Assembly (NCBI RefSeq): GCF_000710775.1
Contig: NZ_JOJP01000001.1
Coordinates: forward strand, 3,452,583 to 3,516,582
Direction of reading: 5' to 3'
Length of the DNA: 64,000 nt
Source of the DNA: Endozoicomonas elysicola
Lineage (GTDB): Bacteria > Pseudomonadota > Gammaproteobacteria > Pseudomonadales > Endozoicomonadaceae
In this document: positions 13,767 to 26,625 of the stretch, piece after piece
Numbering within the stretch: position 1 is the first letter of the stretch
How the letters are laid out: every line of letters starts with the position of its first letter
Notes under the pieces: model-generated
The model's database searches: none
What the model was told of the DNA's origin: nothing
What the model saw: only the letters and a program-made list of their open reading frames with translations
Program-made: the position numbers and the translations under genes

Positions 13767-14849
13767 TTAAATGACGGGAGCAGGACTGACGACATCTGCA
13801 TTCTGTGCCCGATGCCTCATAAAATGATCCATCAGAGTAATCGCCATCATCGCTTCGGCAATGGGAACCGCCCGAATCCCGACGCAAGGATCATGACGCC
13901 CTTTCGTGACCACTTCAACCGGCTCGCCTTGCATGTTAATGGACTTGCCTGGAGTGGTAATGCTTGAGGTTGGTTTCAGGGCAATATGAGCAATAACATC
14001 CTGACCTGAACTGATACCACCTAACGTCCCACCACTATGATTTGAAAGAAAGCCATCTGGCGTCATTTCATCACGATGATCCGTTCCATTCTGGCTGACA
14101 CTGGCAAAACCATCACCAATTTCAACCCCCTTCACGGCATTAATACTCATTAATGAGTGAGCCAGATCCGCATCAAGACGATCAAAAACCGGCTCTCCCA
14201 GTCCTGGTGGCACACCGGTTGCCATCACGGAGACTCTGGCACCAACAGAGTTACCTTCTGAACGAAGACGGGTAATCAGCGCTTCCATTTCTGGCACCTT
14301 GCCAGCATCCGGTGAGAAGAACGGATTATTTCTGATTTCCTTCTGGTCAAACTGCTCAATACTGATGTCACCTATCTGGGATAACCAGCCAATAATTTCA
14401 ATGCCCTGAGATTGCAGAAACTTACGGGCAATAGCCCCTGCAGCAACCCGCATGGCCGTTTCTCTGGCTGAAGATCGCCCACCACCCCGGTAATCTCGAA
14501 CACCGTACTTATGGGTATAGGTGTAATCAGCATGCCCGGGCCTGAACAGGTCTTTAATATTGGAATAATCTTTGGAACGCTGATCCTGGTTTTCGATCAA
14601 CAGACCAATGGGGGCTCCGGTAGTTACACCTTCAAAAACACCCGAGAGAATTTTTACCTGATCCGGTTCACGACGCTGGGTAGTAAACTTGGAAGTACCG
14701 GGTTTTCGCCGATCCAGATCACCCTGAAGATCAGCTTCAGCCAACGGTATCCCGGGCGGGCAACCATCGACAATACAGCCCAGAGCCAGACCATGGGACT
14801 CACCAAAGGTAGTGACCCTGAACAGCTGTCCTATACTATTTCCTGCCAT
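13767..14849 (-). CDS. aroC: chorismate synthase
   Basis: AroC makes chorismate from 5-enolpyruvylshikimate-3-phosphate, the last step of the shikimate pathway, using reduced FMN. At 360 residues it has the usual length. It begins [20 protein letters not shown] and carries the signatures [40 protein letters not shown] and [11 protein letters not shown]. It follows prmB on the same strand, a common gammaproteobacterial arrangement, although a hairpin separates them. Confidence 0.98.
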
Positions 14850-14897
14850 ACTTAAGCGATCTCATTCTTATTTTCAGAAAATTCTAAAAAAAGGGTT

Positions 14898-14918
14898 AAA
14901 GCCCCCTTAAAGGGCTTT
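14898..14918 (-). terminator. terminator at end of prmB
   Basis: On the minus strand AAAGCCC (14918-14912) pairs with GGGCTTT (14904-14898) and AACCC plus seven Ts follow. The hairpin overlaps the last bases of prmB. Confidence 0.7.
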
Positions 14919-15899
14919 TAACCGGTTCTTAAACAACGACTGATACTTTCTACAATCCTCAGCGGACAGAACCAGAACGCCATGGCCACCTTTTTCAAAG
15001 TCCGGCCAGACAAAAGGTACTTCCGGATACTCATCCTGCAATGCCCATTGACTGTTACCTACTTCCAATACCAGCAATCCCTGCTCATCCAGGAAGTCGC
15101 CGGCCTGAGCCAGAATGGAGCGGGCAAAATCAAGCCCATCATCACCGGCAGCCAATCCAAGCTCTGGCTCATGGGTGAACTCTTCCGGCATATCGGACAT
15201 ATCTTCAGCATCCACATAAGGTGGATTGCTCAAAATCAGTTGATACCTGGGTCGTTCGGGCAAAGCATCGAAAAACTCAAACAGATCTGATTTTATTGCC
15301 TGAACTCTTCCCCATAGTTCATGGCGATCAATATTAATATTGGCAACTTCCAGGGCATCCTCTGAAATATCCAATAAATCTACCTGGGACTCAGGAAAAG
15401 CATGAGATGTCGCAATACCAATACAACCGGAGCCAGAACACAGGTCGAGTACACGACTGACCTCCACATCCCCCAGCCATGGCTGGAACTGCTGAAGAAT
15501 GAGTTCGGCAATGGGAGAGCGGGGAACCAGAACCCGTTCATCCACATAAAAAGGCATATCGCAGAACCACGCCTGATTGACAAGATAGGCCAGAGGTTTA
15601 CGACTGGCTGCCCGCTCTTCAATCAGATTGGCAAGTTTGTCACGCTCACGATGCGTTAAACGACTGTCAAGATAGCTGTCGGGAAGATCCCAGGGCAACT
15701 GCAATACCTGGAAGACCAGATGAAGGGATTCATCCAGGGCATTATCACTGCCATGGCCAAAGAACAGACCCGCTTCGTTAAAACGGGTCGCTCCCCAGCG
15801 TACAAAGTCTCGAATCGACACCAGTCCTTCGCAGGACTCATTGGAACCTGTCACATTTGCTCCTTCGGACTCGATAGAACTCTGTAGTTCAAGATGCAT
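14907..15899 (-). CDS. prmB: ribosomal protein L3 N5-glutamine methyltransferase
   Basis: PrmB methylates a glutamine of ribosomal protein L3. The 330-residue protein has the PrmB N-terminal helical domain ([19 protein letters not shown], then [11 protein letters not shown]), the SAM-binding [14 protein letters not shown] and the catalytic [14 protein letters not shown] loop that recognises the glutamine. The NPPY motif plus the WFC...[12 protein letters not shown] signature separates it from the release-factor enzyme PrmC. The first 25 residues (to about SNESCEGL) extend beyond the E. coli protein and may reflect an upstream start call. Confidence 0.95.
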
Positions 15900-15977
15900 C
15901 GAATCCTTACTGCCTCATATAGGTGGCATAAAATAGCATATTAAGTGGTCGCGGTTAACGACTGTTTAAATGTTAAC

Positions 15978-16238
15978 TAGGGGGCGTTCTCAGTTAGCCA
16001 TGAGACCAGTTGATCACACAAGCACTCAGGCAAGGCGAACGGCGCAGAGCATGGTGATTCCATGTTCAAGTTGTTCAACGCGGCATGAGTGTTTGTGCGA
16101 TCAACCCGAAGGGCCGTCCATGATTTGCGCCATACCGCGTTACTCACTGCTTGAGGAATAGCCACACCGCGCAGTTCGCGCCTTACCTGACGAAAATCAT
16201 GGGCGGCTGGCCACATGTCTAATTGAGAACGTCCCCTA
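15978..16238. repeat. MITE with about 20-bp terminal inverted repeats
   Basis: The left end TAGGGGGCGTTCTCAGTTAG recurs inverted at 16219-16238 with two mismatches. Both ends begin with TA, so a TA target duplication is possible. The 261-bp interior has open frames on both strands but none resembles a protein. A solitary related end (AGGGGGCGCTCTCAA) is present at about 46025. Confidence 0.65.
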
Positions 16239-16287
16239 ATACCATTTTCACCTTCCAACCATGAGCTACAGGATAAAAAACACCTAT

Positions 16288-17004
16288 TTAATCAGACAGA
16301 TAGTACTCAACGGTAGAAACAACCCTGACTTTCTTGATATGGGGGTTGTTACGGTCACGGGTGCTAATAGAAAACTGCCCCTGGGAAGCTCTTTTGATTT
16401 TGCCAAGCTTACTTTCTGAATCAGTAGCAAACTTCTCTGCTACCTCCCTGGCTTTTCGGGTTGCCTCTTCAATCATTTCTGGCTTCACATCATTCAACCG
16501 AGTGAAGAGATACTCAGGCTGCGAACCGTAATTGCCACCCGTAAACACAATCCCTTCCTTGCCCAGTTCAGAGAGCCTGCTCATTACTGAGCGCACTACC
16601 ACAATATTTTGCGAGTAGACCGTAATCGTTTGCAGTGCCGTATAGCGGAACTCGGGACGACTGCTGTTGCCATACTGGTTAGCTGACTTATCCGTAATAT
16701 CAGGTGACATCAGACTGATTTCATCAGAAGCGATACCACTTTTCTCCAAAAAAGCCTTAATCCTGCCGTTATTGTTATCAATCGAAGCATAGAGAGACTT
16801 CAGATCATTGTCTGCAGCTGAGTACTGAATGGGCCAGATGACAATATCCGCCTGATACTCCCGCTCAGATAACCCCTTTACCGTGACACTTCGCTCATAC
16901 TGCTTGTAATCAATGGCAGCATTCGCCATCAGATACCCCAGACAGGAAAGCCCCAGAAAAACAGATATGCCCAGTATCAGGGCACTGACTCTATCGGTAC
17001 TCAT
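16288..17004 (-). CDS. SIMPL-domain (DUF541) exported protein
   Basis: This 238-residue protein starts with one N-terminal hydrophobic segment (LILGISVFLGLSCLGYLMA), an uncleaved anchor or signal peptide, and continues as a SIMPL/DUF541 domain of the YggE type. VTVKGLSEREYQADIVIWPI is the characteristic first strand. E. coli YggE is linked to oxidative stress protection, but the molecular activity of the family is unknown. It is likely periplasmic. No operon partner: a terminator-like GC stem (17043-17059) separates it from the LysR gene upstream. Confidence 0.85.
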   Translation of the reverse strand: MSTDRVSALILGISVFLGLSCLGYLMANAAIDYKQYERSVTVKGLSEREYQADIVIWPIQYSAADNDLKSLYASIDNNNGRIKAFLEKSGIASDEISLMSPDITDKSANQYGNSSRPEFRYTALQTITVYSQNIVVVRSVMSRLSELGKEGIVFTGGNYGSQPEYLFTRLNDVKPEMIEEATRKAREVAEKFATDSESKLGKIKRASQGQFSISTRDRNNPHIKKVRVVSTVEYYLSD

Positions 17005-17042
17005 GGTTGTTACACCTGATGTTTTTGTTTAAAAAATAACGA

Positions 17043-17059
17043 GCCCCGTCCTTGGGGGC
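17043..17059 (-). terminator. GC-rich hairpin downstream of LysR gene
   Basis: On the minus strand GCCCC pairs with GGGGC around a 7-nt loop, followed within a few bases by a TTATTTTTT run. Confidence 0.5.
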
Positions 17060-17100
17060 CTTGATATAAGTTTGCCTTGGTAAATTATCAGATTTAGCGT

Positions 17101-18009
17101 CTATGTCATCTCATTTACCAGATAATCAATGAAACAGCGAAGCTGAGCCGGCATATACCTTGATCTGGGGTACTGAATATTAATCTTGCCCTGATAATTC
17201 CCCATCACTTTCCAGTCTGCAAGCACTTGCACAATTTTTCCGTCCCGCAATGCAGGCTCAGCCGTAAAGCTTGGCAACATCCCAATCCCAAGCCCCTGCA
17301 GAATACCATTTAACCGCATTTCGGTATGATTCACCGCATACTGACCATCCACAGTAACCCGGACTTTCTGATCCCCGTAAACAAACCCCCACTGGTTATC
17401 ATCAGTCTTCTCTCCCAGGTAGAGGCAGTTATGTCTGACCAGATCTTTGGGATGCTCAGGCGTTCCAAATTGATGCAAATACTCCGGGCTTGCGCAGAGC
17501 TGCAGCTCTACCTGCCCCAGAGAACGTGAAACCAGCCCCTCTGTTGGGCTATCGGTAATGCGGAAGATCGCATCCACTTCATCCTTAATCGGATCCACAT
17601 AATAATCCGTTATCTTCAGTTTGAGGCGAATATTGGGGTACTGGGCCAGGAAAGGAAAAATCAGGGGTTCGAGAACCTGTTTTCCAAATGCTTTTGGCAC
17701 CGCTATTCGGAGATAACCTGCAGGATCCGATTCATCGTAACTCGAGGCATGAACGGCCTCTCTGGCTGAGTCCAGCATAACACGACAGTAATCATACGTT
17801 GCCTTACCGGATTCACTGATCCCGACCTGTCGCGTCGTTCTTTCCAGCAATTTTATTGAGAGGGCTGATTCCAGTCTCGAGATTTGTCGGCTCACAGCTG
17901 AAGGTGTGACTCCAAGCTTCTTTCCAGCAGCAGTGAAACTGCCGCAGTCAACGACTGTGACAAAAACAGCCAGATCTGGCATGAGCGATATCAGTTTATT
18001 TGTGTCCAT
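17101..18009 (-). CDS. LysR-family regulator, divergent to the synthetase/dioxygenase cluster
   Basis: This is a 302-residue LysR regulator. The helix-turn-helix reads SFTAAGKKLGVTPSAVSRQI, followed by SRLESALSIKLLER, then a substrate-binding-like effector domain of the CrgA/PP-type subfamily. It is transcribed away from the argininosuccinate-synthase-like gene across a 114-bp spacer, the standard geometry for a LysR protein that controls its divergent neighbour. I therefore infer that it regulates the cluster at 18124-21092, with the inducer unknown. Confidence 0.9.
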   Translation of the reverse strand: MDTNKLISLMPDLAVFVTVVDCGSFTAAGKKLGVTPSAVSRQISRLESALSIKLLERTTRQVGISESGKATYDYCRVMLDSAREAVHASSYDESDPAGYLRIAVPKAFGKQVLEPLIFPFLAQYPNIRLKLKITDYYVDPIKDEVDAIFRITDSPTEGLVSRSLGQVELQLCASPEYLHQFGTPEHPKDLVRHNCLYLGEKTDDNQWGFVYGDQKVRVTVDGQYAVNHTEMRLNGILQGLGIGMLPSFTAEPALRDGKIVQVLADWKVMGNYQGKINIQYPRSRYMPAQLRCFIDYLVNEMT

Positions 18010-18123
18010 ACATCAAAAATCATGTTCTTTTAGAGGTCATTATAAACATGGAAAGCATTAGTTAGCATAAGCATTAAAATTTGCAACCGGATACTGCAAA
18101 TAAAGTACATCAGGAGTAATGGC

Positions 18124-19314
18124 ATGAGAAAAATCAGAAGTATTCAGGATTTGTCGTTTGTTGCTGACCAGACAGACCATGCACTCACACTTTTCAGCGG
18201 CGGCCTTGACAGCACCTATATTTTGAAAGTCCTGAGCACCATGAATATCAAGGTGACGGCACTGGCTGTTGATCTTGGTGACGGTATTGACAGAGCAAGA
18301 CTTCAATCGATAACCGAGCACTATGGGGCCGACCTAATTATTGAAAATGCCACTGAACAGTTTATTGAAAGTGCAGTCATTCCAGCCATTCAGGCTCAGG
18401 CTCAGGCAATGTATATGAATATGTACCCGGTCAGTTCTTCCCTGTCACGCCCGGTTATAGCCCGCATAGCTGTAAAGACTGCAGCTAAACTGGGTTGTGG
18501 AGCTATTGTTCATACAGCAAACCAGTCGCAAAACAGTTTGCGCCGTCTTAATGGTGCCATAAAGCATAGTGGTTACCGTGGTTTTTATGGCTCCCCCTAC
18601 GAATACAGTGCGATTACCCGCACGGAAAAGGCCTCACAACTGTCCATTTCCTGTATGCAGGATCAGCGTCAGGGGGATGTCAGCAGTGACAGTAATCTCT
18701 GGTGCAGAGAATATGAATCTGGAGTGTTAGACAATCCAGAAGATTTTATGATTCCAGAGTCTCTGTTTCTCTGGTCACAGGAAAACCCATCGAAACAGAT
18801 TTCAGAAGCATCCCACCAGGTTCGCATTACTTTCCGTGAAGGGATTCCGGTTTCGGTTAATGAGCAGCCAATGCCCGTAGCTGAATTGATCAAGTTTCTT
18901 AACACCCGGGTAGGTGCCTACAAAATTGGCAGATACCTTGGACTGGAACATCTTGATCAGGATGAAAAAGTGTTGGAAATCCGGGAAGCCCCGGCAGCCA
19001 GAATGCTGATGGAAGCCTATAAGCACCTGGAAATGGCTGCCCTGCCGACCGGTTATCTGAACTACAAAAATCAGCAGGAGCAAATATGGACAATGGAGGC
19101 CGTCGAGGGTCGCTGGGGTAGCCCTCTGCAACAGGCGTCACGGGCATTTATTCAGTCATCAACTGAGAAAGTTTCAGGTTCCGTCACTTACAAGCTCGAA
19201 AAAGGCATGGCAACAGCGGTCTCTATCGTTGCCAGAGAAGCACTCTACCTTACCGATCGAGACCTCTGGGAAGTTCAGGCAGCCCGGGAGAGGAGCCAAC
19301 GCACACTGTCCTGA
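18124..19314 (+). CDS. argininosuccinate synthase-like ATP-dependent ligase
   Basis: This 396-residue enzyme is related to argininosuccinate synthase (ATP-pyrophosphatase fold), which joins citrulline and aspartate through an adenylated ureido intermediate. The PP-loop FSGGLDSTYIL is at residues 25-35, and SSSLSRPVIARIAVKTAAK corresponds to the GTSLARPxIA segment of ArgG. The region that in ArgG reads HGxTGKGNDQVRFE is instead HTANQSQNSLRRLN, so the substrate pocket is changed. An AGGAG site lies 7 bases before the ATG. It leads a probable operon with a dioxygenase and an exporter, which argues for specialised metabolism rather than arginine synthesis. The stop codon lies in a repeat end (19313-19341). 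Confidence 0.8.
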   Translation: MRKIRSIQDLSFVADQTDHALTLFSGGLDSTYILKVLSTMNIKVTALAVDLGDGIDRARLQSITEHYGADLIIENATEQFIESAVIPAIQAQAQAMYMNMYPVSSSLSRPVIARIAVKTAAKLGCGAIVHTANQSQNSLRRLNGAIKHSGYRGFYGSPYEYSAITRTEKASQLSISCMQDQRQGDVSSDSNLWCREYESGVLDNPEDFMIPESLFLWSQENPSKQISEASHQVRITFREGIPVSVNEQPMPVAELIKFLNTRVGAYKIGRYLGLEHLDQDEKVLEIREAPAARMLMEAYKHLEMAALPTGYLNYKNQQEQIWTMEAVEGRWGSPLQQASRAFIQSSTEKVSGSVTYKLEKGMATAVSIVAREALYLTDRDLWEVQAARERSQRTLS

Positions 19315-19341
19315 GCACGTAACAAAACGTCAACAGGCCCT
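19313..19341. repeat. solo end of the GGGCCTGTTGACGTTT repeat
   Basis: The sequence matches the right end of the inverted-repeat element at 22978-23170 over about 29 bp with two differences. It begins at the stop codon of the preceding gene, whose TGA lies in the repeat's CTGAGCACG. Confidence 0.6.
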
Positions 19342-19379
19342 AACCCGATAACACCAATAATAATCAAAGGGAAATAGAC

Positions 19380-20129
19380 ATGGGTATCATGGTTGCCCCC
19401 TACCGGGAAATCAGGGAAGTCGTTCACAGTCTAAGCAACACGCTTTCTTCCAGGGAATTTATAACATCAGGCGGTTCAGACATCACACGCCTGCTTAATA
19501 TTACCCGGGAAGATATTCAGCAGTTTGGCGCATTGTGGAGTGACCTCAAGCTGGACCAATACATGGCCGATGGAGGCTTCTACCGTTACCGTAGATATGG
19601 TCAGTTTGAGCTGAATCCACACACGCTGGAAAAACATCAACTCCCCCATGAGCCATATTTCCAGCCTGGTTACATCAATACATTAAATGGTGATCTTAAG
19701 CGAACTTTTGAACCATTGACTGTGGAGTTTGCCCGTCACCATGTTCTGGACCGACTGATACGGTTTCTGGCGGAAATCTGCAATGGTGCTTCAGGCAGAA
19801 AAATCCCCTGGAATGTCCGCCTGCACCCATACCGGATTGTGGCCAGAAAAGGCATAAATGGTATGCCAACACCCGAAGGGCTTCATCGGGACGGCGTTAC
19901 CTTTATTTCTTCGATCCTGATCCGTCGGCACAATGTTCTGGGTGGTGTTACTACCATTACCGATGCTGACAGAAAACCTCTGACTGACGTCCAACTTACC
20001 CATCCATTCGACCTTATGCTGGCAAATGACGAAGCAACCATGCATTCAGTGTCGTCAATATCAATGGCCAATAGTGAACTGAGCACTGCGTACCGCGATG
20101 TTCTGGTTATTGCTTTCACCCAACCATAA
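19380..20129 (+). CDS. 2-oxoglutarate/Fe(II) dioxygenase (PF10014-type amino acid hydroxylase)
   Basis: This 249-residue cytosolic enzyme matches the 2OG-Fe dioxygenase family that includes bacterial isoleucine dioxygenases, which hydroxylate free amino acids with O2 and 2-oxoglutarate. The iron ligands are visible as H169-x-D171 (in EGLHRDGVTF) and H222 (in EATMHSVSSI). R239 (AYRDVLVI) is placed to bind 2-oxoglutarate. LIRRHNVLGGVTTI is a family block. An AAAGGG site precedes the ATG. It lies between the ArgG-like ligase and the EamA exporter. The substrate is not readable; a free or modified amino acid is likely. Confidence 0.85.
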   Translation: MGIMVAPYREIREVVHSLSNTLSSREFITSGGSDITRLLNITREDIQQFGALWSDLKLDQYMADGGFYRYRRYGQFELNPHTLEKHQLPHEPYFQPGYINTLNGDLKRTFEPLTVEFARHHVLDRLIRFLAEICNGASGRKIPWNVRLHPYRIVARKGINGMPTPEGLHRDGVTFISSILIRRHNVLGGVTTITDADRKPLTDVQLTHPFDLMLANDEATMHSVSSISMANSELSTAYRDVLVIAFTQP

Positions 20130-20183
20130 AAACAAGAGAGTTAGCAGGCCTCTCCTTTAGAAGGAAGGTTTGCAGATTTATTT

Positions 20184-21092
20184 ATGCACGCATTACTCGA
20201 ATCACGATTTTACAAACGTAAATGGCCAATCGCAGAATGTTCACTCCTGATGGTCGCCATATTCTGGGGAACCAGTTACGGGCTGACCAAAGAAGCCCTT
20301 GTTTATGTACCGGTACTGGGGTTTCTAACCATCCGGTTTCTGATGACTTTCAGCATTTTACTGCCCATTCTTTCGAAAGAGTTGAAGACGGGTGCCGCAA
20401 AAGACTGGAAATATGCACTGCCTACCGGCTGCATACTGCTCACTATCTTCCTCTGTGAAACCTATGGAGTAGCCAATACCACCGCATCCAATGCGGCATT
20501 TCTGATCAGCCTCTGTGTACTGATCACCCCGTTTATAGAATGGGCGGTATTCAAAAGTTATCCCGGTGGTAAGATTTTCCTGCAGGCTACCGGATGCCTG
20601 CTCGGTGTATTCCTGCTCTCTTATAACGAAGAACTGGGAGTCACCATCAACCAGGGCGATGGATTTATACTCCTTGCGGCTGTGTTCAGAGGGTTCATGG
20701 TCATCGTGACCAAGAAACTGATGATTGGACGACAACTCTCATCCATCAGTTTGACCGCAATCCAGTCTGGAGTTGTCGGCTCCGGTGCGCTGCTACTGTG
20801 TCTGATAATCAATCCGGAAACCAACCTTCAGATTCCGACAGCACCGGCATTCTGGCTAACCATGCTCTATCTGGTTCTGTTCTGCACCATCTTTGCATTT
20901 TTTGCCCAGAACTATGGTGTTCGCAAAACCTCACCATCACGGGTTGCACTATTGATGGGTACTGAACCGGCTTTCGGTGCAGCCTTCGCTATTCTATGGC
21001 TGGGAGAACATCTGGCATGGTTCCAGATAGCAGGAGGAATAATAATTGTTGCCTGTGCCACTTACAGTTCAATGAGTAGAGCCAGCCATTAA
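20184..21092 (+). CDS. EamA/DMT-family exporter
   Basis: This 302-residue inner-membrane protein has about ten TM helices in two EamA repeats (SLLMVAIFWGTSYGLTKEAL in the first; GTEPAFGAAFAILWLGEHL in the second), as in RhtA-type amino acid and metabolite exporters. It is the third gene of the cluster, 54 bases after the dioxygenase, behind an AAGGAAGG site with a rather long spacing. By position it should export the product or an intermediate of the preceding two enzymes. A GC-rich hairpin follows. Confidence 0.9.
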   Translation: MHALLESRFYKRKWPIAECSLLMVAIFWGTSYGLTKEALVYVPVLGFLTIRFLMTFSILLPILSKELKTGAAKDWKYALPTGCILLTIFLCETYGVANTTASNAAFLISLCVLITPFIEWAVFKSYPGGKIFLQATGCLLGVFLLSYNEELGVTINQGDGFILLAAVFRGFMVIVTKKLMIGRQLSSISLTAIQSGVVGSGALLLCLIINPETNLQIPTAPAFWLTMLYLVLFCTIFAFFAQNYGVRKTSPSRVALLMGTEPAFGAAFAILWLGEHLAWFQIAGGIIIVACATYSSMSRASH

Positions 21093-21143
21093 TCGTAAAG
21101 CACTGCATCTCTTAGCAGCCTTGCACAGAAACTGAATCACAAT

Positions 21144-21163
21144 ACCCACGGGGCACCGTGGGT
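21144..21163 (+). terminator. hairpin after the exporter gene
   Basis: ACCCACGG (21144-21151) pairs perfectly with CCGTGGGT (21156-21163) around GGCA. There is no clear T tract. It probably ends the three-gene cluster. Confidence 0.6.
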
Positions 21164-21166
21164 AAT

Positions 21167-21330
21167 AATACCACTTCCACCTTCTAACTATGGGCTGCGC
21201 AGCCATTTTGAACTACTGGCCTGCGTTGACGCTCCTCGCCATAGCTACGGCTATGACTCGTCGCTTCGCCTTGTCCAGTAGCCAAAAATAGCTTGCTCGC
21301 TCTCATAGTTAGAAAGCGGAAATGGTATAA
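21167..21330. repeat. MITE-like element, TATACC-TTCTAAC family
   Basis: The ends (TAATACC...CCTTCTAACTATG and its inverted counterpart CATAGTTAGAAAG...GGTATA) are imperfect inverted repeats. The centre has CCATAGCTACGGCTATG. Related copies lie at 39784-39978 and 47984-48147. Confidence 0.65.
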
Positions 21331-21370
21331 TATGACCGGTCACCAATCGGGAGAATGCTCCAGACAACCT

Positions 21371-21838
21371 TCACTGGGGTTCAGATAACTGCAGGCGTTC
21401 TGTTTCTGCAACGATCATCGCTTCCAGCATGTGAATGTTCTGCTCTACCCGCTGAATGCCAATCTGCCCACCTCTGGCAAAAAGCACCGGCATTTTTTCA
21501 ATCGTCTTTCGACCAGTGGGTGTGCGATAGAAAGCATTCAACTCCCTGAGTTCATCAGTCGTAAACTCTTCGGCATACAGCTTCACCATCTCAGGCTTCA
21601 GACTCTCATAACTCATATACTGTTCAAAGAAATCAGCAATGACATGCCGGAATGGCAACAGCGCCGGGTTCTGTTGAACCTGCATCTCCATCATCTGATT
21701 CATGGACTGCTCAATAGCCGTCTCAGCCCCCATCACATTCAATAATCTGGCGGCCTCATTCTCTGCTTCACTATTGGCAAAAGCAAAGGAGCTGAATACG
21801 AAAAGCATCCCACACACCGTCATACGAGCCAGTTTCAT
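21371..21838 (-). CDS. exported DUF2059 protein
   Basis: This is a 155-residue exported protein with an N-terminal signal peptide (MTVCGMLFVFSSFAFANS). The mature part is helical and matches the DUF2059 pattern: repeated Met-rich helices (QSMNQMMEMQV), then YAEEFTTDELRELNAFYRTP followed by GRKTIEKMP. The family is periplasmic and of unknown function. It stands alone between repeats. Confidence 0.85.
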   Translation of the reverse strand: MKLARMTVCGMLFVFSSFAFANSEAENEAARLLNVMGAETAIEQSMNQMMEMQVQQNPALLPFRHVIADFFEQYMSYESLKPEMVKLYAEEFTTDELRELNAFYRTPTGRKTIEKMPVLFARGGQIGIQRVEQNIHMLEAMIVAETERLQLSEPQ

Positions 21839-21947
21839 AGAAAGTCCCTGTATTTATAGTTTTTGAAGTCAGAACTCTACCTTTTCCATCAAAAAATATA
21901 AACGGCAGTGGATAGGAAGTTTTCAGAACCTCCTGAATGGTATTCTC

Positions 21948-22904
21948 TCACCTGGAAGAATGTTCCATTTTATAAGCAGCAAGGAAAGCGGCCCCGGAGA
22001 CAACAGCTTGCCAATGACGCTCTTTGACAAAAGCTGCGTATTTTTTCTGTGTCATTTTACAATCTTCAGTCAGCAATCCAGAATCACCAAAAGCAATAGG
22101 CATCTGTTCATCCCATTCATTACGATAGCCAGTGAAATAGTCATGGTGATAATCATAATCCCAGAAAAAACGCCATTGCAGGGTACACCCGGGAATGTTC
22201 TGGTCCAGTGCTTCTAACGTTAACAGCGCTGTATTATTAACAAAAAACAGAACCGGATTTTTTTTTATGGAAACACGTCCCCTATTGGATGCAGGGTCGA
22301 GTGATATCAACAGTTCATTTGAAAACAGCCGCTGGCACAATGAGTCCCTTTCGGAGAGCTGATTAATCTTTTTTTGGATTTGCTGATAAGCAACAGGCCA
22401 GGCGTCCACAGCGTCGTGAATCATTCTCGGGCCAAACATCCCCGTCGCCCCCAACAATAAAAGTGGCGGTAAGGGCCCGTGAAATACTGGCATAACATGC
22501 GCTGGCACAGTCACATCTTCAATAAAATGCAGTGCACTACCGGCAAGATCCGTACTGAACCGATCAGCAGCTCTTATATCACTTTCAATATCTTCCAGCA
22601 TATTTTTCATAGAGCGGTTAATCAGGCCATATCTCTGCCTGCTTTCCAGGTGAGGGTTATAAAAATGCCAGTTAAACATCCTTTTCGGAGCCTTGGTCAA
22701 ATAGGTATCTTCTCCGGCATCAGCATCAGCAATTTCCAAAGCGGCCTTATCATCAATGAAGAGATTGTACGTTTCATCAGAAAGGCATTGATTATAGAGT
22801 TTGACGGACAGGCTTGAGATTAATTGATGCTGAGCAGGCTCATAGGCAAATGACAGTGAACTGAAGCAAAGCTCCAGACAAAGAACAAAATAGACAACCT
22901 TCAT
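21948..22904 (-). CDS. secreted zinc-phospholipase C/S1-P1 nuclease-like protein
   Basis: This 318-residue protein has a clear signal peptide (VYFVLCLELCFSSLSFAY). Metal-ligand-like residues appear in the pattern of the zinc-dependent phospholipase C / P1 nuclease fold: an early His (PAQHQLI), WHFYNPH, and the block AGSALHFIEDVTVPAHVMP, which is the H-x3-D-x4-P-x-H pattern of that superfamily. A later HHDYF stretch may complete the site. The family assignment is my inference; substrate (phospholipid or nucleic acid) is open. It would act in the periplasm or outside the cell. Confidence 0.6.
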   Translation of the reverse strand: MKVVYFVLCLELCFSSLSFAYEPAQHQLISSLSVKLYNQCLSDETYNLFIDDKAALEIADADAGEDTYLTKAPKRMFNWHFYNPHLESRQRYGLINRSMKNMLEDIESDIRAADRFSTDLAGSALHFIEDVTVPAHVMPVFHGPLPPLLLLGATGMFGPRMIHDAVDAWPVAYQQIQKKINQLSERDSLCQRLFSNELLISLDPASNRGRVSIKKNPVLFFVNNTALLTLEALDQNIPGCTLQWRFFWDYDYHHDYFTGYRNEWDEQMPIAFGDSGLLTEDCKMTQKKYAAFVKERHWQAVVSGAAFLAAYKMEHSSR

Positions 22905-22977
22905 TGATAATCATGACTCTGAAATATTTATTGTAAGAAGCTGACCAAACAAACTCCCTTTTCTAGTACAGCAGCAT

Positions 22978-23170
22978 TAGGGCCTGTTGACGTTTCGTTG
23001 CGAGGGTCAGTGGCTTGAAAAGTGTCATATGAGCGAAAGACTTGTGCAGCTCGTAGTTATTCTACGTCAAGCTAGTCTGACAAAGCAGATGGCTCTTTTC
23101 CAAACCACCCGAAGAGCGTATCAGGGCGACCCGATACGCTGAGCACGCAACGAAACGTCAACAGGCCCTA
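22978..23170. repeat. 193-bp element with perfect 25-bp inverted ends
   Basis: Left end starting TAGGGCCTGTTGACGTTTCG (22978-23002) is repeated exactly, inverted, at 23146-23170. Both ends begin with TA. The interior is non-coding. Solitary related ends are at 19313-19341 and 46891-46905. This looks like a MITE mobilised by an absent transposase. Confidence 0.8.
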
Positions 23171-23337
23171 GTCATTAAAGCAAAGAATTTTAATCAGGCA
23201 ATCATAAATCAATTTCAAAAAATATTGATTCCAGATAGGAAAAACCCGGAAAGTAGTTTTCCGGGCTATCGATCAATGTGATTGGGCAAATTCGTCACAC
23301 ATTCATTAAATGGGTATCAAGAGCATGAAATACCTGC

Positions 23338-24525
23338 TCAGGCTCTTGTCGCTGATTGAAGCAGTTCTATGCGTCTCTTCATCATATCCTGGTGTGAACC
23401 TTCCCGGATCACACTACCCAGAGCCTCAGCGAGATGCTCTTTTAAGTGTTGTCTTAAACTCCCGGGCGTCTCATCGGATGTATATCTGGCAACAATCTGC
23501 TCAATGGCAGTCGTTATCAGGCTGGCAGAATTCAGTATTTCAGCCGCAAATTTCGGTTCGCCCGCTTTGAGTGCGGCAATGGCCTGCTTCAATTTCTCCA
23601 CCACTTCTCTATTCTGCTCATCCTTGGTCTCAGCTTCTCGCCGGGCTTCTTGTAACCGCTCTAAAAACTCAGCATTGGACAGTGCCTCCAGCGACAGAAA
23701 TACCCCTCTTTGTGTTACAGCGATGCCTTCAAGATATTCTTCCCTTGTTCTTACCAATGGGTTCAGATCAATACCTAACCGCTCAGACAACAGACTTAAC
23801 CGTACATGTTCTGGTATTCCATAAAGATCCGCTGTATGCAGATCACCGGAGGTCGACTCCCCCTTACTACTGCGATTGAGAGAAACAATATCATCAATAA
23901 CTCTTTGCAGTACCAGCGAACCTATACTCCCTGCAGACGGTAACGCAGTGGAGGCAATGATACTCAGCGCCTGAAGTGAGGGTGATTGCTCTGCATCAGG
24001 CGCCTGCTGGATGGACTCTGCCAACTGCCTGACGTTACTTTCATATATGCCTACCGCACCCTGTACATCCGGATCAGCTGCCCCTGTTACCCCAGCCTGA
24101 ACCTTAGCCACTACATCTTCTAATGGAGAAGACGAAAGCCCCCTGACATCTGACGATTGTTGAGCCGACTCTTCCAGTGCTCCAACACCATTATTGTCAG
24201 AGAAAGCCGGTGCCTGCTCCCGTGAAGACAGAAGCCCCAGCGTATCCCTGGCTGCCTGAGCTTTCGTCTGAAGCCCTTGAATGTCTTCAGATGAAACCGC
24301 CGTTGCATCTGGAAGAACGGCTGGCAGTGTTGGAACAGAAGTAGCTGGCGAAGAGAGAATACTTTCAACCGTATCTGGACGACCTTGAGAAACAGAATTT
24401 GTTTGCTCAAAACCCAGTTTAACCTTGTCACCCGCCTCTTCTATCATCGCTTTGGCTACGAGTTCCGCCGGTGACAGTTCCAGCTGCTTTGCCTGTAACT
24501 CCCCGGATCCTGATACTCCACCCAT
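23338..24525 (-). CDS. probable type III secretion substrate paired with SycD chaperone
   Basis: I do not recognise the family of this 395-residue protein. An AAGGAG site 7 bases upstream favours the ATG at 24525 (MGGVSGSGELQ); an alternative GTG is two codons earlier. The N-terminal 180 residues are Ser/Ala/Gln-rich and look disordered. Then comes a mildly hydrophobic block (LSIIASTALPSAGSIGSLVL) and a C-terminal coiled-coil rich in Glu/Arg/Lys (LERLQEARREAETKDEQNR). It starts a few bases after the SycD/LcrH-like chaperone, the arrangement of secreted translocators and effectors with their chaperones, so I infer it is the chaperone's client. There are no classic translocator TM hairpins. Confidence 0.6.
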   Translation of the reverse strand: MGGVSGSGELQAKQLELSPAELVAKAMIEEAGDKVKLGFEQTNSVSQGRPDTVESILSSPATSVPTLPAVLPDATAVSSEDIQGLQTKAQAARDTLGLLSSREQAPAFSDNNGVGALEESAQQSSDVRGLSSSPLEDVVAKVQAGVTGAADPDVQGAVGIYESNVRQLAESIQQAPDAEQSPSLQALSIIASTALPSAGSIGSLVLQRVIDDIVSLNRSSKGESTSGDLHTADLYGIPEHVRLSLLSERLGIDLNPLVRTREEYLEGIAVTQRGVFLSLEALSNAEFLERLQEARREAETKDEQNREVVEKLKQAIAALKAGEPKFAAEILNSASLITTAIEQIVARYTSDETPGSLRQHLKEHLAEALGSVIREGSHQDMMKRRIELLQSATRA

Positions 24526-24538
24526 ACACAAACTCCTT

Positions 24539-25018
24539 TCAGTGCATTGAAAGCTCTGTCATGATTTTTTTAACCCTGATGACATCAGGGCTGCTGATAT
24601 CTGACTCCCTGACCATTTGCAATGAGGCCTGATAGGCAAGCCCTGCTTTTTGATACTGATGTAAAGCAACATAGCAATCACCCACATAAATCATTGGATG
24701 CGGGTTATTGGCATCAAAAGAGACAGCATAAAGGTAGGTATCAATGGCTTGACCATACAAGTTCAACATTTGCTGGCAAGCGCCAAGACCAATGAAAAAG
24801 CGAGGGTTCCATTGACTATAAAGACAGAGGTATTGAAATAGACGAGCGGATTTTACGAACTGACCATTATTATATTGCAAATAGGCCAGCTCATAGACGG
24901 CCTCCTGTGCCTCATCACTAATATTGCTGGCTTCAGCCAGACTTCCTCCACGATCGAGATAGTCCCCCACAATAGCCATTGTCTGGGTATCAGAAGCGCT
25001 GAGCAATGAATCATTCAT
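24539..25018 (-). CDS. SycD/LcrH/IpgC-type type III secretion chaperone
   Basis: This 159-residue protein is an all-helical TPR chaperone of the class II type III chaperones that hold translocators in the cytosol. AYLQYNNGQFVKSARLFQYL and the hallmark NPRFFIGLGACQQ are followed by AIDTYLYAVSFDANNPHPMI and CYVALHQYQKAGLAYQ, three TPRs in the expected order and length. It overlaps no other gene but sits 13 bases upstream of the putative client at 24525. No other type III apparatus genes are present, so this is an orphan pair. Confidence 0.85.
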   Translation of the reverse strand: MNDSLLSASDTQTMAIVGDYLDRGGSLAEASNISDEAQEAVYELAYLQYNNGQFVKSARLFQYLCLYSQWNPRFFIGLGACQQMLNLYGQAIDTYLYAVSFDANNPHPMIYVGDCYVALHQYQKAGLAYQASLQMVRESDISSPDVIRVKKIMTELSMH

Positions 25019-25392
25019 ATACTGCTTCCCTGCAGATTAGAAACACGAGTTATTCTATATAGGTATAGCATTTACCTGTAATAACATGGCTTCTAATGAC
25101 ACTACCCCGCCTCCCATCCCCCCTCTATACAACCTGTAACCCACTGAAAATAAAGACATCTTAAACCAGCATCAAAAAACAGAGGCAAAGTAATGTTTTC
25201 AACCGGCTAAGGCTCCATCACCCTCCTCTGAAATTGACACTATTGATGAGTTTTTATCTGATTCGTAAAAGAACACCTAAACCAAACCATATAGCTAAAT
25301 CCATTAAGTTAAATGAACAGATCTTTTGATATCTAAAAAAACAAAGGAAACTTGTAAGATTAAGAAGAAAACAATGAGGACTTGAAAGGAAA
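25019..25392. other. AT-rich intergenic stretch, no gene seen
   Basis: Between the chaperone gene and the diverged island end I see no supportable gene. A minus-strand 84-codon frame at 25254-25508 has a low-complexity, Phe/Leu/Ser-rich translation typical of AT-rich non-coding DNA. Confidence 0.6.
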
Positions 25393-25535
25393 TTTGGTGA
25401 TAAGGGAGAAACCCTAACCCTTGAAATAAAGAAGACTCCATTATATATCAATAGGTTAAAACAGATCAAAAAGTAAAAAAAACCACTGGGGTTGTTAAAA
25501 GTGAGCATTGGTCAATTTGGTATCCCGGAAACTTT
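25393..25535. repeat. diverged copy of the island left end (older attachment site?)
   Basis: This stretch aligns by eye with 28041-28185 over about 140 bp with conserved spacing: a degenerate tRNA-like GGTGATAAGGGAG at the left, ATATCAATAGGTTA against ATATCAACAAGTTA in the middle, and GGTTGTTAAAAGTG...GGTCAATTTGGT against GGTTGTTGAAAGTG...GGTCAGTTTGGT at the right. I infer a left end of an earlier island at the same tRNA-Ser gene. Confidence 0.5.
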
Positions 25536-25555
25536 TGCAACCATAGTTTGTCGTA

Positions 25556-25613
25556 ATAGTAGGTGCGTGGGAATGAAGAGCATAACGGGATTTTAACCCG
25601 TAACACCTACTAT
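25556..25613 (+). promoter_or_regulatory. nested hairpin upstream of unknown gene
   Basis: A perfect 10-bp outer stem (ATAGTAGGTG at 25556-25565 with CACCTACTAT at 25604-25613) encloses an inner ACGGG/CCCGT stem. It lies 139 bases before the gene at 25753. It could be a structured leader or part of a recombination site. Confidence 0.4.
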
Positions 25614-25752
25614 CCGGCAACCACTTGACTGAAACCAAGCGTAACTTTAGTGGTACTTAGGTAACTTTTTGATGTCTAGGGCTTTAAAAATAACTACTCA
25701 CACATTTAACCCACCACCGCCAACAAAACAACAAGATGAAAGGAATTAGATT

Positions 25753-26625
25753 ATGCTCGAGGGAAGCGCCTCTCTACAAAGTCCGACAGGTTCAATAAGT
25801 CAACCTGTAAAATCTACAGATGCTTTTAATTTAGAATCAATTAGTGAAGCATTAACCCTCAATCTAGGCTCAGTAAAAAAAATTGATGGAAAACCTATCA
25901 TTCAGGTGAAGTCTGATGAGAGATTGGTTTTGGAAAAATTCCGCAATGGTCAACTGTTAGCAAGAATGCTTTGTGATTACACTAATGAAAAAAAACTCCG
26001 TTTCGATCGTCTTATTGATGAAATTAGTGAGCTTAAGGCTATAGGACATAGGAGAGTCTCATCAACAACCTTTCTTGACCCTAGACATGGAATGGATTTA
26101 TACCGACATATGGGGTTGCTGTTAGATGCTGAAAAATGCCGTGTTAGACATATAAATACTGCCGATGCATCAATGTACCGATTAGGTGATAACAATAAAT
26201 TTTGTACATGGAATAGGAAGCTTAACACTTATACCTGCTCCCCACATAATAAAGAAAATGAGGTAAGCTTTAGTGGTAAATTTCGAACCGGCGACCGTAT
26301 GGGATTAAAGATAGAAAGCCTTGAAGTTTTACGTAAAATCCCTCTTGAAAAATTGGCAAGAAAAGAAGAATTAATTCAATTGAATGAAGTCGTTGTAGAT
26401 TATAATCAAGATGCCATATTAGGTGTTATTGCTACGCCAGAAATAAAAGTAATGTCAATGTTAAAACGTATGCCTTTATTCAATTTAAAACAAGATTGTA
26501 TCGGGATGCAGTTGGAAGCTGAGAGAAATGGCCTAATTGTTTCTAACTCATTCCTATATGACCCAAAAGCGAATACGCTAACGAGTACTACAGAATCAGA
26601 AACACCTGTAAAGCAGCCGGTATGA
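25753..26625 (+). CDS. protein of unknown function in accessory DNA
   Basis: I do not recognise this 290-residue protein. A good AAAGGA site precedes the ATG and the codon use is coherent, so the gene looks real. No signal peptide or TM segment. The N-terminus is Ser/Thr/Gln-rich (SASLQSPTGSISQPV), as in many type III effectors. The body contains a Cys-containing YRLGDNNKFCTWNRKL block and helical charged regions (LARKEELIQLNEVVVDY). It is AT-rich and lies between island-end repeats and IS remnants. A secreted effector is conceivable given the nearby chaperone pair, but this is speculation. Confidence 0.6.
   Translation: MLEGSASLQSPTGSISQPVKSTDAFNLESISEALTLNLGSVKKIDGKPIIQVKSDERLVLEKFRNGQLLARMLCDYTNEKKLRFDRLIDEISELKAIGHRRVSSTTFLDPRHGMDLYRHMGLLLDAEKCRVRHINTADASMYRLGDNNKFCTWNRKLNTYTCSPHNKENEVSFSGKFRTGDRMGLKIESLEVLRKIPLEKLARKEELIQLNEVVVDYNQDAILGVIATPEIKVMSMLKRMPLFNLKQDCIGMQLEAERNGLIVSNSFLYDPKANTLTSTTESETPVKQPV

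Follow-up and report, generated by a model that had tools for sequence, protein, structure and literature searches.

What does a gene resembling that of argininosuccinate synthase (ArgG) do in a row with the genes of an Fe(II)/2-oxoglutarate (2OG) oxygenase and of an EamA-type exporter? The question is raised by a locus of Endozoicomonas elysicola, analysed here within a stretch of 64,000 nucleotides (the window) of a genome of 5.6 Mb in 2 contigs. From the letters alone, an original prediction had proposed this gene set, i.e., consecutive genes of an ArgG-like ligase, a PF10014 oxygenase and an EamA exporter and a LysR regulator diverging from them, which the open reading frames (ORFs) and their Pfam matches prove correct; it had further read the set as making and exporting a hydroxylated or conjugated amino acid. 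That an altered amino acid is made and exported remains the best reading, and the trio is co-conserved across loci. More specifically, the trio may constitute a stand-alone pathway acting on a free amino acid, whereby a side-chain amide would be converted into a nitrile, the molecule oxidised and the product exported, a reading to which a probability of about 0.55 is given here. The genes, the families they belong to, the changes in the active site and the conservation of the set can be shown, and the product of the cassette is a prediction.

In the first instance, the identity of the first gene has to be considered. Its product scores 614.8 bits against NF038212 (argininosuccinate synthase-related protein), well over the curated cut-off of 425, and reaches the cut-off of none of the five listed ArgG models, namely TIGR00032 (178 bits vs 268.2), NF001770 (192 vs 334), NF010392 (186 vs 512), NF003385 (83 vs 603) and NF003779 (32 vs 657). 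A separate, true ArgG is encoded in the same genome (G000:C1:4204583-4205671), scoring 433 with TIGR00032 (cut-off 268) and 597 with NF001770 (cut-off 334) and carrying the canonical pocket residues. It is thus nearly certain that the first gene of the trio is not ArgG.

The three genes also travel together. Related loci (L034-L113) were taken as the best 80 of 154 relatives, ranked by likeness to the window in one scan of genome contigs. Within 1.5 kb of the ArgG-like gene, oxygenase homologues are present at 64/80 and EamA homologues at 60/80 of these loci, and neither at any of 28 true ArgG loci, some flanks of which are cut by contig ends; a chance assembly of the trio is thereby excluded. 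When partners are sought within 2.5 kb at the 78 loci where the ArgG-like gene matches over nearly its full length (L072 and L089 were left out), the oxygenase and EamA genes are found together with LysR in 45 and without it in 13, i.e., both partners at 58/78, as against the oxygenase alone in 4 (among them L074, a weak partial match) and neither partner in 16. The order ArgG-like gene, oxygenase, EamA on one strand is kept in 58 of the 61 loci with all three genes, window included, the gaps having medians of 7 and 2 bases, and the remaining three are L106 (EamA first), L088 (one open frame) and L101 (overlapping stop-to-stop ORFs). Just upstream of the ArgG-like gene, a LysR homologue is encoded on the opposite strand in 45/80 related loci. 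On rhizobial plasmids, the order is EamA, ArgG-like gene, oxygenase, and on the Bradyrhizobium plasmid p155_2 the EamA gene lies about 8 kb away from the other two.

Sixty trio loci represent 33 genera (any locus lacking a genus name was counted separately) and include 14 Vibrio loci and 7 Collimonas loci; the hosts are mostly Pseudomonadota and Streptomyces, together with a myxobacterium and a metagenome-assembled genome (MAG) of Sulfurospirillum, and the trio is also carried by conjugative rhizobial plasmids. By direct cluster count, none of the remaining neighbour clusters up to 3.5 kb from the trio occurs in more than 4/33 genera, and among extra neighbour families (157/216 representative ORFs, one per sequence cluster) the commonest of the 25 listed in each tally reach 3/97 and 1/60. 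Comparison of the three proteins by their distance matrices gave concordant results (r of 0.80, 0.93 and 0.76 at n=59, with none of 2000 permutations exceeding 0.17), a correlation that would also arise from shared ancestry alone. Altogether, that the three genes form a functional unit is hardly open to doubt, and the set proposed in the original prediction is co-conserved, as the neighbourhoods of related and true ArgG loci reveal. Two loci deserve separate mention, i.e., the Sulfurospirillum MAG (L088, 7992-9794), where the ArgG-like enzyme and a PF10014-type oxygenase share one open frame, either because the genes are fused or because a stop codon is missing, and a Gloeocapsa MAG contig (L075), the trio of which is closest to that of Dyella (L071; 73% for the ArgG-like protein), owing to horizontal transfer or a misbinned contig.

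Respective to the chemistry of the first enzyme, the closest chains in the PDB are 9LEI and 9LEH, named “nitrile synthetase” (335 bits, 45% identity over nearly the full length), the next matches being ArgG structures at 111 bits and below. In a quick tree, 9LEI groups with proteins of Agrobacterium, Rhizobium and Mesorhizobium from operons of the order EamA, ArgG-like gene, oxygenase (support 91); this group is joined at 99* by one locus with the trio (L106) and one without partners (L102), and the window protein and 9LEI lie within the same starred set of 28 rows. At 13 of 15 tabulated ArgG pocket positions the window protein is identical to 9LEI/9LEH, the differences being confined to N271 (H vs P) and R272 (L vs I). 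These likenesses suggest that the ArgG-like protein is probably an ATP-dependent nitrile-forming enzyme.

The altered pocket was followed in an alignment of 70 sequences, i.e., the window, 9LEI and 68/80 related loci (12 loci without an ORF meeting the motif and length filter were dropped), with reference to human ASS1, for which residue roles including the aspartate contacts T119 and D124 are described (PMC13289927). The position of T119 is occupied by N in 68/70 and T in 2/70, and that of D124 by S or T in 70/70 (S 47, T 23). Further replacements concern S189 (E in 69, K in 1), Y282 (R in 70/70), G117 (T in 69, S in 1), K121 (S in 70/70) and T17 (S in 70/70); S12, D16, R95, N123, R127, S180, D182 and E191 are unchanged in 70/70, and E270 is E in 54 and D in 16. 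Canonical residues are present in all 28 true ArgG rows compared. In the window protein, the equivalents of T119, N123 and D124 are N133, N137 and S138, i.e., T119 and D124 are replaced and N123 is kept. Constancy at T119, K121, N123 and S189 is partly circular because the patterns used to fetch loci L034-L113 span these positions; D124 and Y282 are outside the patterns, and five plasmid loci found by tblastn (L114-L118, of eight plasmid matches) carry the same residues at D124 and Y282, one having S at T119. The pocket residues are consistent with an enzyme in which ATP activation of a side-chain amide would be kept and attack by aspartate lost, where Glu for Ser (S189) and Arg for Tyr (Y282) would suit a substrate shorter than citrulline.

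The second protein matches the PF10014 profile and exhibits the HxD...H...R residues of the family. As the original prediction had it, all of the residues H169, D171, H222 and R239, which from family knowledge we take to be the iron and 2OG residues, are in place, and they are invariant in 49 aligned oxygenases (window and 48/63 listed loci). Hydroxylation by this enzyme is held to be somewhat likelier than ring formation. As for the third protein, EamA/DMT membership is established by two EamA repeats (PF00892, two stretches), along with a weak match to TIGR00950 (carboxylate/amino acid/amine transporter; 61 bits vs a cut-off of 230), and it quite likely exports the product.

Taken together, the pathway can be proposed as follows. 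At its ArgG-type ATP site, the ArgG-like enzyme would first activate a small amino acid, most likely asparagine or glutamine, by adenylating its side-chain amide, with about even chances that the amide of one of these two is indeed the substrate; because aspartate would no longer be bound, AMP would be eliminated and a nitrile formed instead of argininosuccinate. Either ahead of nitrile formation or following it, the PF10014 enzyme would oxidise, and most likely hydroxylate, the carbon chain, and the EamA protein would export the product, which would act outside the cell as an antimetabolite or signal, with the LysR protein controlling expression of the cassette. Beyond genes, families, residues and conservation, we infer the nitrile chemistry (from the named structures), the loss of aspartate binding, the substrate, the order of the steps, export, regulation and the biological role.

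Several observations weigh against this reading. The name “nitrile synthetase” was given to 9LEH/9LEI by their depositors, and since identity to 9LEI is only 45%, the substrate may differ. The equivalents of T119 and D124 contact ATP too in E. coli ArgG (PMC13289927), so that their replacement is not about aspartate alone; T17 and G117, ATP contacts as well, are also changed (S in 70/70 and T in 69/70), and the position of Y87 is Tyr in only 44/70 (H 21, F 5). Ranking relatives by likeness to the window favours trio-bearing kin. The 16/78 loci with neither partner comprise 13 actinobacterial loci, 2 of Burkholderia and L102 from a proteobacterial MAG, some of them adjoining genes of the nonribosomal peptide synthetase (NRPS) type, or amino acid ligase, halogenase or catabolic genes. 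In the sister genome G008, the cassette is damaged by an in-frame TAA in the ArgG-like gene and by 740 missing bases. Finally, the named PF10014 structures that the oxygenase resembles most in sequence belong to cyclopropane-forming enzymes, namely HrmJ (9DQP, 101 bits; 9DQ0, 68) and BelL (8JMS, 67.5), ahead of IDO (6LNH, 29) and TqaL (7EEH, 23).

This last ranking bears on an alternative in which the oxygenase acts like HrmJ/BelL or TqaL, forming a cyclopropane or aziridine ring on the nitrile amino acid without any hydroxyl. HrmJ and BelL, enzymes of hormaomycin and belactosin synthesis, catalyse cyclopropanation of a nitro amino acid, and TqaL catalyses aziridine formation. With HrmJ/BelL placed above both IDO and TqaL by sequence, ring formation deserves mention but is considered improbable. 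Of the same low standing is a role of the ArgG-like enzyme as a C-N ligase, activating an amino acid with a ureido or amide group and coupling it with an amine that is not aspartate to give a conjugated or guanidino product, subsequently hydroxylated by the PF10014 enzyme. Canonical ArgG makes a C-N bond, and the ArgG-type residues N123, R127 and E191 are kept; however, the closest solved relatives are named nitrile synthetase, the aspartate contacts are replaced, no gene supplying an amine or encoding a lyase recurs beside the trio (no neighbour cluster in more than 4/33 genera), and ArgH is not among the 25 families listed in each of the Pfam tallies of neighbours (157/216 representatives scanned). 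The “conjugated” product also entertained in the original prediction finds no support; amide-to-nitrile dehydration is likelier, because the nearest solved relatives are nitrile synthetases by name. A more speculative variant of the nitrile pathway, to be held as distinctly doubtful, is that the cassette would yield an amino acid that is a free cyanohydrin, with the hydroxyl on the nitrile-bearing carbon, e.g., beta-hydroxy-beta-cyanoalanine from asparagine or 4-hydroxy-4-cyano-2-aminobutyrate from glutamine. As for an ordinary arginine-pathway ArgG beside unrelated neighbours, which the Pfam label of the first protein (argininosuccinate synthase) would suggest and which the original prediction had named as fatal to its case, it is already refuted by the five missed ArgG cut-offs, the true ArgG elsewhere in the genome, the replaced T119 and D124 equivalents and the co-conserved trio.

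Outside the trio, example neighbours of the ArgG-like gene are AMP-binding, ATP-grasp, PhyH, HalD or GCS2 genes at the actinobacterial loci and MFS, FAH and aldehyde dehydrogenase genes at the Burkholderia loci. In Salmonella enterica subsp. diarizonae (L084, 3-11371), the genes of an NRPS with three adenylation domains, the ArgG-like enzyme, a PF10014-like oxygenase and a SerRS-like protein, the last of which may be a self-protection copy, stand in a row. From these neighbours and the Salmonella NRPS locus, it follows that the ArgG-like enzyme serves other, larger pathways too. In Streptantibioticus (L094, 6235-10067), the ArgG-like gene has on one side a HalD-type halogenase gene and on the other an ORF in which aconitase-C-like and isopropylmalate-dehydrogenase-like parts are fused.

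Returning to the nitrile pathway, a second version of the cassette was encountered with an oxygenase of another family. In a genome of the window's own family (G027), an ArgG paralogue with 206 bits for NF038212, i.e., under the cut-off, has as neighbours an EamA gene (55 bits for PF00892, with part of the sequence masked) and an oxygenase of the TauD family, the best PDB match of which is asparagine oxygenase (137 bits, then clavaminate synthase, 131). A plasmid of Sulfobacillus thermotolerans carries ArgG-like, TauD-family and EamA genes in a row, the oxygenase matching asparagine oxygenase at 191 bits (next match, 148), and in G634 a TauD-family oxygenase gene overlaps an ArgG-like gene by 4 bases before the contig ends. 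A careful, unrooted tree with 30 rows places three groups each on one side of a branch, namely 18 rows of the window's type (100/100), 3 of the second type (96/96) and 9 of ArgG (100/100); the two cassettes may thus either have separate origins or differ by an oxygenase swap in one of them. All three second-type proteins exhibit R at Y282 and S or T at D124 and keep T119. Searches for more second-type genes gave 1/398 phylum genomes and one plasmid record, and in a class sample around G634 the count was 0/385 when NF038212 was used at E 1e-55, at which even the copy of G634 itself escaped notice. The like layout with a different oxygenase family supports the logic of the pathway, and the oxygenase likeness to asparagine oxygenase (AsnO) hints at asparagine as the substrate.

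Within the genus, the cassette is accessory, i.e., absent at the site in four relatives and damaged in a fifth. In G002, G003, G005 and G007, homology extends as far as window positions 17,035-17,214, depending on the genome, and resumes at 23,337-23,340, with 33 to about 1000 bases in between in the relative; because the matches of G002 and G005 extend 26 and 114 bases into the 3' end of LysR, loss of the cassette is as possible as its gain. In G008, the block is kept at 94-98% identity on two contigs with EamA and LysR intact, the 740-base gap covering the end of the ArgG-like gene and most of the oxygenase gene; an assembly error may be behind the damage. The NF038212 cut-off was passed by the own genome only, both among 56 genomes in the relatives search and in a class sample (1/369), and other oxygenase homologues of 33-35% identity are present in 8/11 congeners.

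Coordinates are collected in Table 1. The gaps between the three intact ORFs are 65 bases (ArgG-like gene to oxygenase) and 54 bases (oxygenase to EamA), and the hairpin past the exporter gene has no T-run behind it on the + strand. In the intergenic region, a palindrome, ATTTGCA-N9-TGCAAAT (18079-18101), is a possible operator. As a conserved operator it was rejected, being present in the window and its sister genome G008 only and absent from the other 45/47 intergenic regions compared; a foreign base composition was likewise discarded, the G+C content of the cassette (48.1% vs 45.8% for the window) giving no strong signal. Sigma-70-like promoter sites were not in excess in a scan, no RNA family reached the gathering threshold in 14000-26000, and no tandem repeats were found in 15000-24000.

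Table 1. Features of the window locus and of the second-type cassettes (positions in the window unless a locus is named).
Feature	Position	Strand	Remarks
LysR-type regulator, 302 aa	17101-18009	-	PF00126 72 bits, PF03466 134 bits
Intergenic region between divergent genes	18010-18123		114 bases between LysR and ArgG-like genes
ArgG-related ATP-dependent enzyme, predicted nitrile synthetase, 396 aa	18124-19314	+	NF038212; PF00764/PF20979 75/109 bits
PF10014 Fe(II)/2OG oxygenase, predicted amino acid hydroxylase, 249 aa	19380-20129	+	PF10014 197.5 bits
EamA/DMT-family exporter, 302 aa	20184-21092	+	PF00892 121.7 bits, two stretches
Perfect 9-bp hairpin past exporter gene, possible transcript end	21143-21164		Pattern scan only
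Second-type cassettes (G027 and Sulfobacillus plasmid)	L136 4826-7972; L137 4992-8187		
Second-type cassette	L135 2679-4930		Contig ends before any exporter

Further downstream, a long imperfect inverted repeat (21165-21331; 28-nt arms, 86%, with an inner palindrome) resembles a small element of the mobile or REP type, and its core is present once in the window. An ORF at 21948-22904, without any family match over cut-off and confined to the own genome among 11 genomes searched, may be part of the same accessory block as the cassette. Beyond it, a SycD/LcrH-type type III secretion chaperone (24539-25018; TIGR02552, 108.8 bits vs a cut-off of 104.8) is followed by an ORF without NCBIfam match (23338-24531), the two forming a possible secretion gene pair beside the accessory block.

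Among known systems, amide-to-nitrile chemistry is also encountered. The substrate of QueC is a deazapurine. Like QueC-type enzymes, PesC takes a carboxylate through the amide to the nitrile via adenylation, and differs from the window enzyme in being asparagine-synthetase-like rather than ArgG-like and in acting on a peptide C-terminus (PMC13060819). That source cites Zeng et al. (ACS Catal. 2025), which, from its title alone, is probably the paper of 9LEH/9LEI. In cystobactamid synthesis, an AMDH domain bearing the ATP-binding motif SGGKD turns carrier-bound asparagine into beta-cyanoalanine beside the Fe/2OG hydroxylation of asparagine by CysJ, and a methoxylated beta-cyanoalanine occurs in an albicidin derivative (PMC7966384); the pairing of amide dehydration with Fe/2OG hydroxylation is alike. 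Another bacterial route to a nitrile amino acid starts from cyanide, by 3-cyanoalanine synthase (PMC8567248). Regarding the oxygenase, the fold is shared with HrmJ/BelL (9DQ0, 9DQP, 8JMS), the nearest named enzymes by sequence, and the IDO operon of Bacillus thuringiensis encodes a PF10014 hydroxylase of free amino acids, a reductase and an RhtA-family exporter, while a LysR regulator belongs to the Hil operon (PMC3684760). Unlike the trio, these operons include a dehydrogenase, to which a second dioxygenase is added in Hil and an amino acid ligase in some cases; neither a dehydrogenase nor a second dioxygenase is apparent from Pfam in the eight window proteins of 15977-22904, and the term argininosuccinate is absent from PMC3684760. 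No description of the trio was found in the open literature searched, in line with the original prediction, Zeng 2025 and Peng 2024 (ACS Catal.) being known by title only.

The cassette is small enough for a direct test in E. coli by liquid chromatography-mass spectrometry. Should the cyanohydrin variant hold true, the exported product would break down to hydrogen cyanide and an aldehyde amino acid, which would give bacteria a compact means of releasing cyanide that has no relation to HcnABC and exists in two versions, each with an oxygenase of its own family. The nitrile amino acid route of cystobactamid and albicidin runs on a carrier protein inside an NRPS (PMC7966384), whereas the window encodes a stand-alone, three-gene and exporter-linked cassette with no carrier protein. 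If the proposed reading is true, such cassettes, found in 33 genera of the sample in addition to the second version, would be a widespread and unrecognised source of reactive small amino acids.

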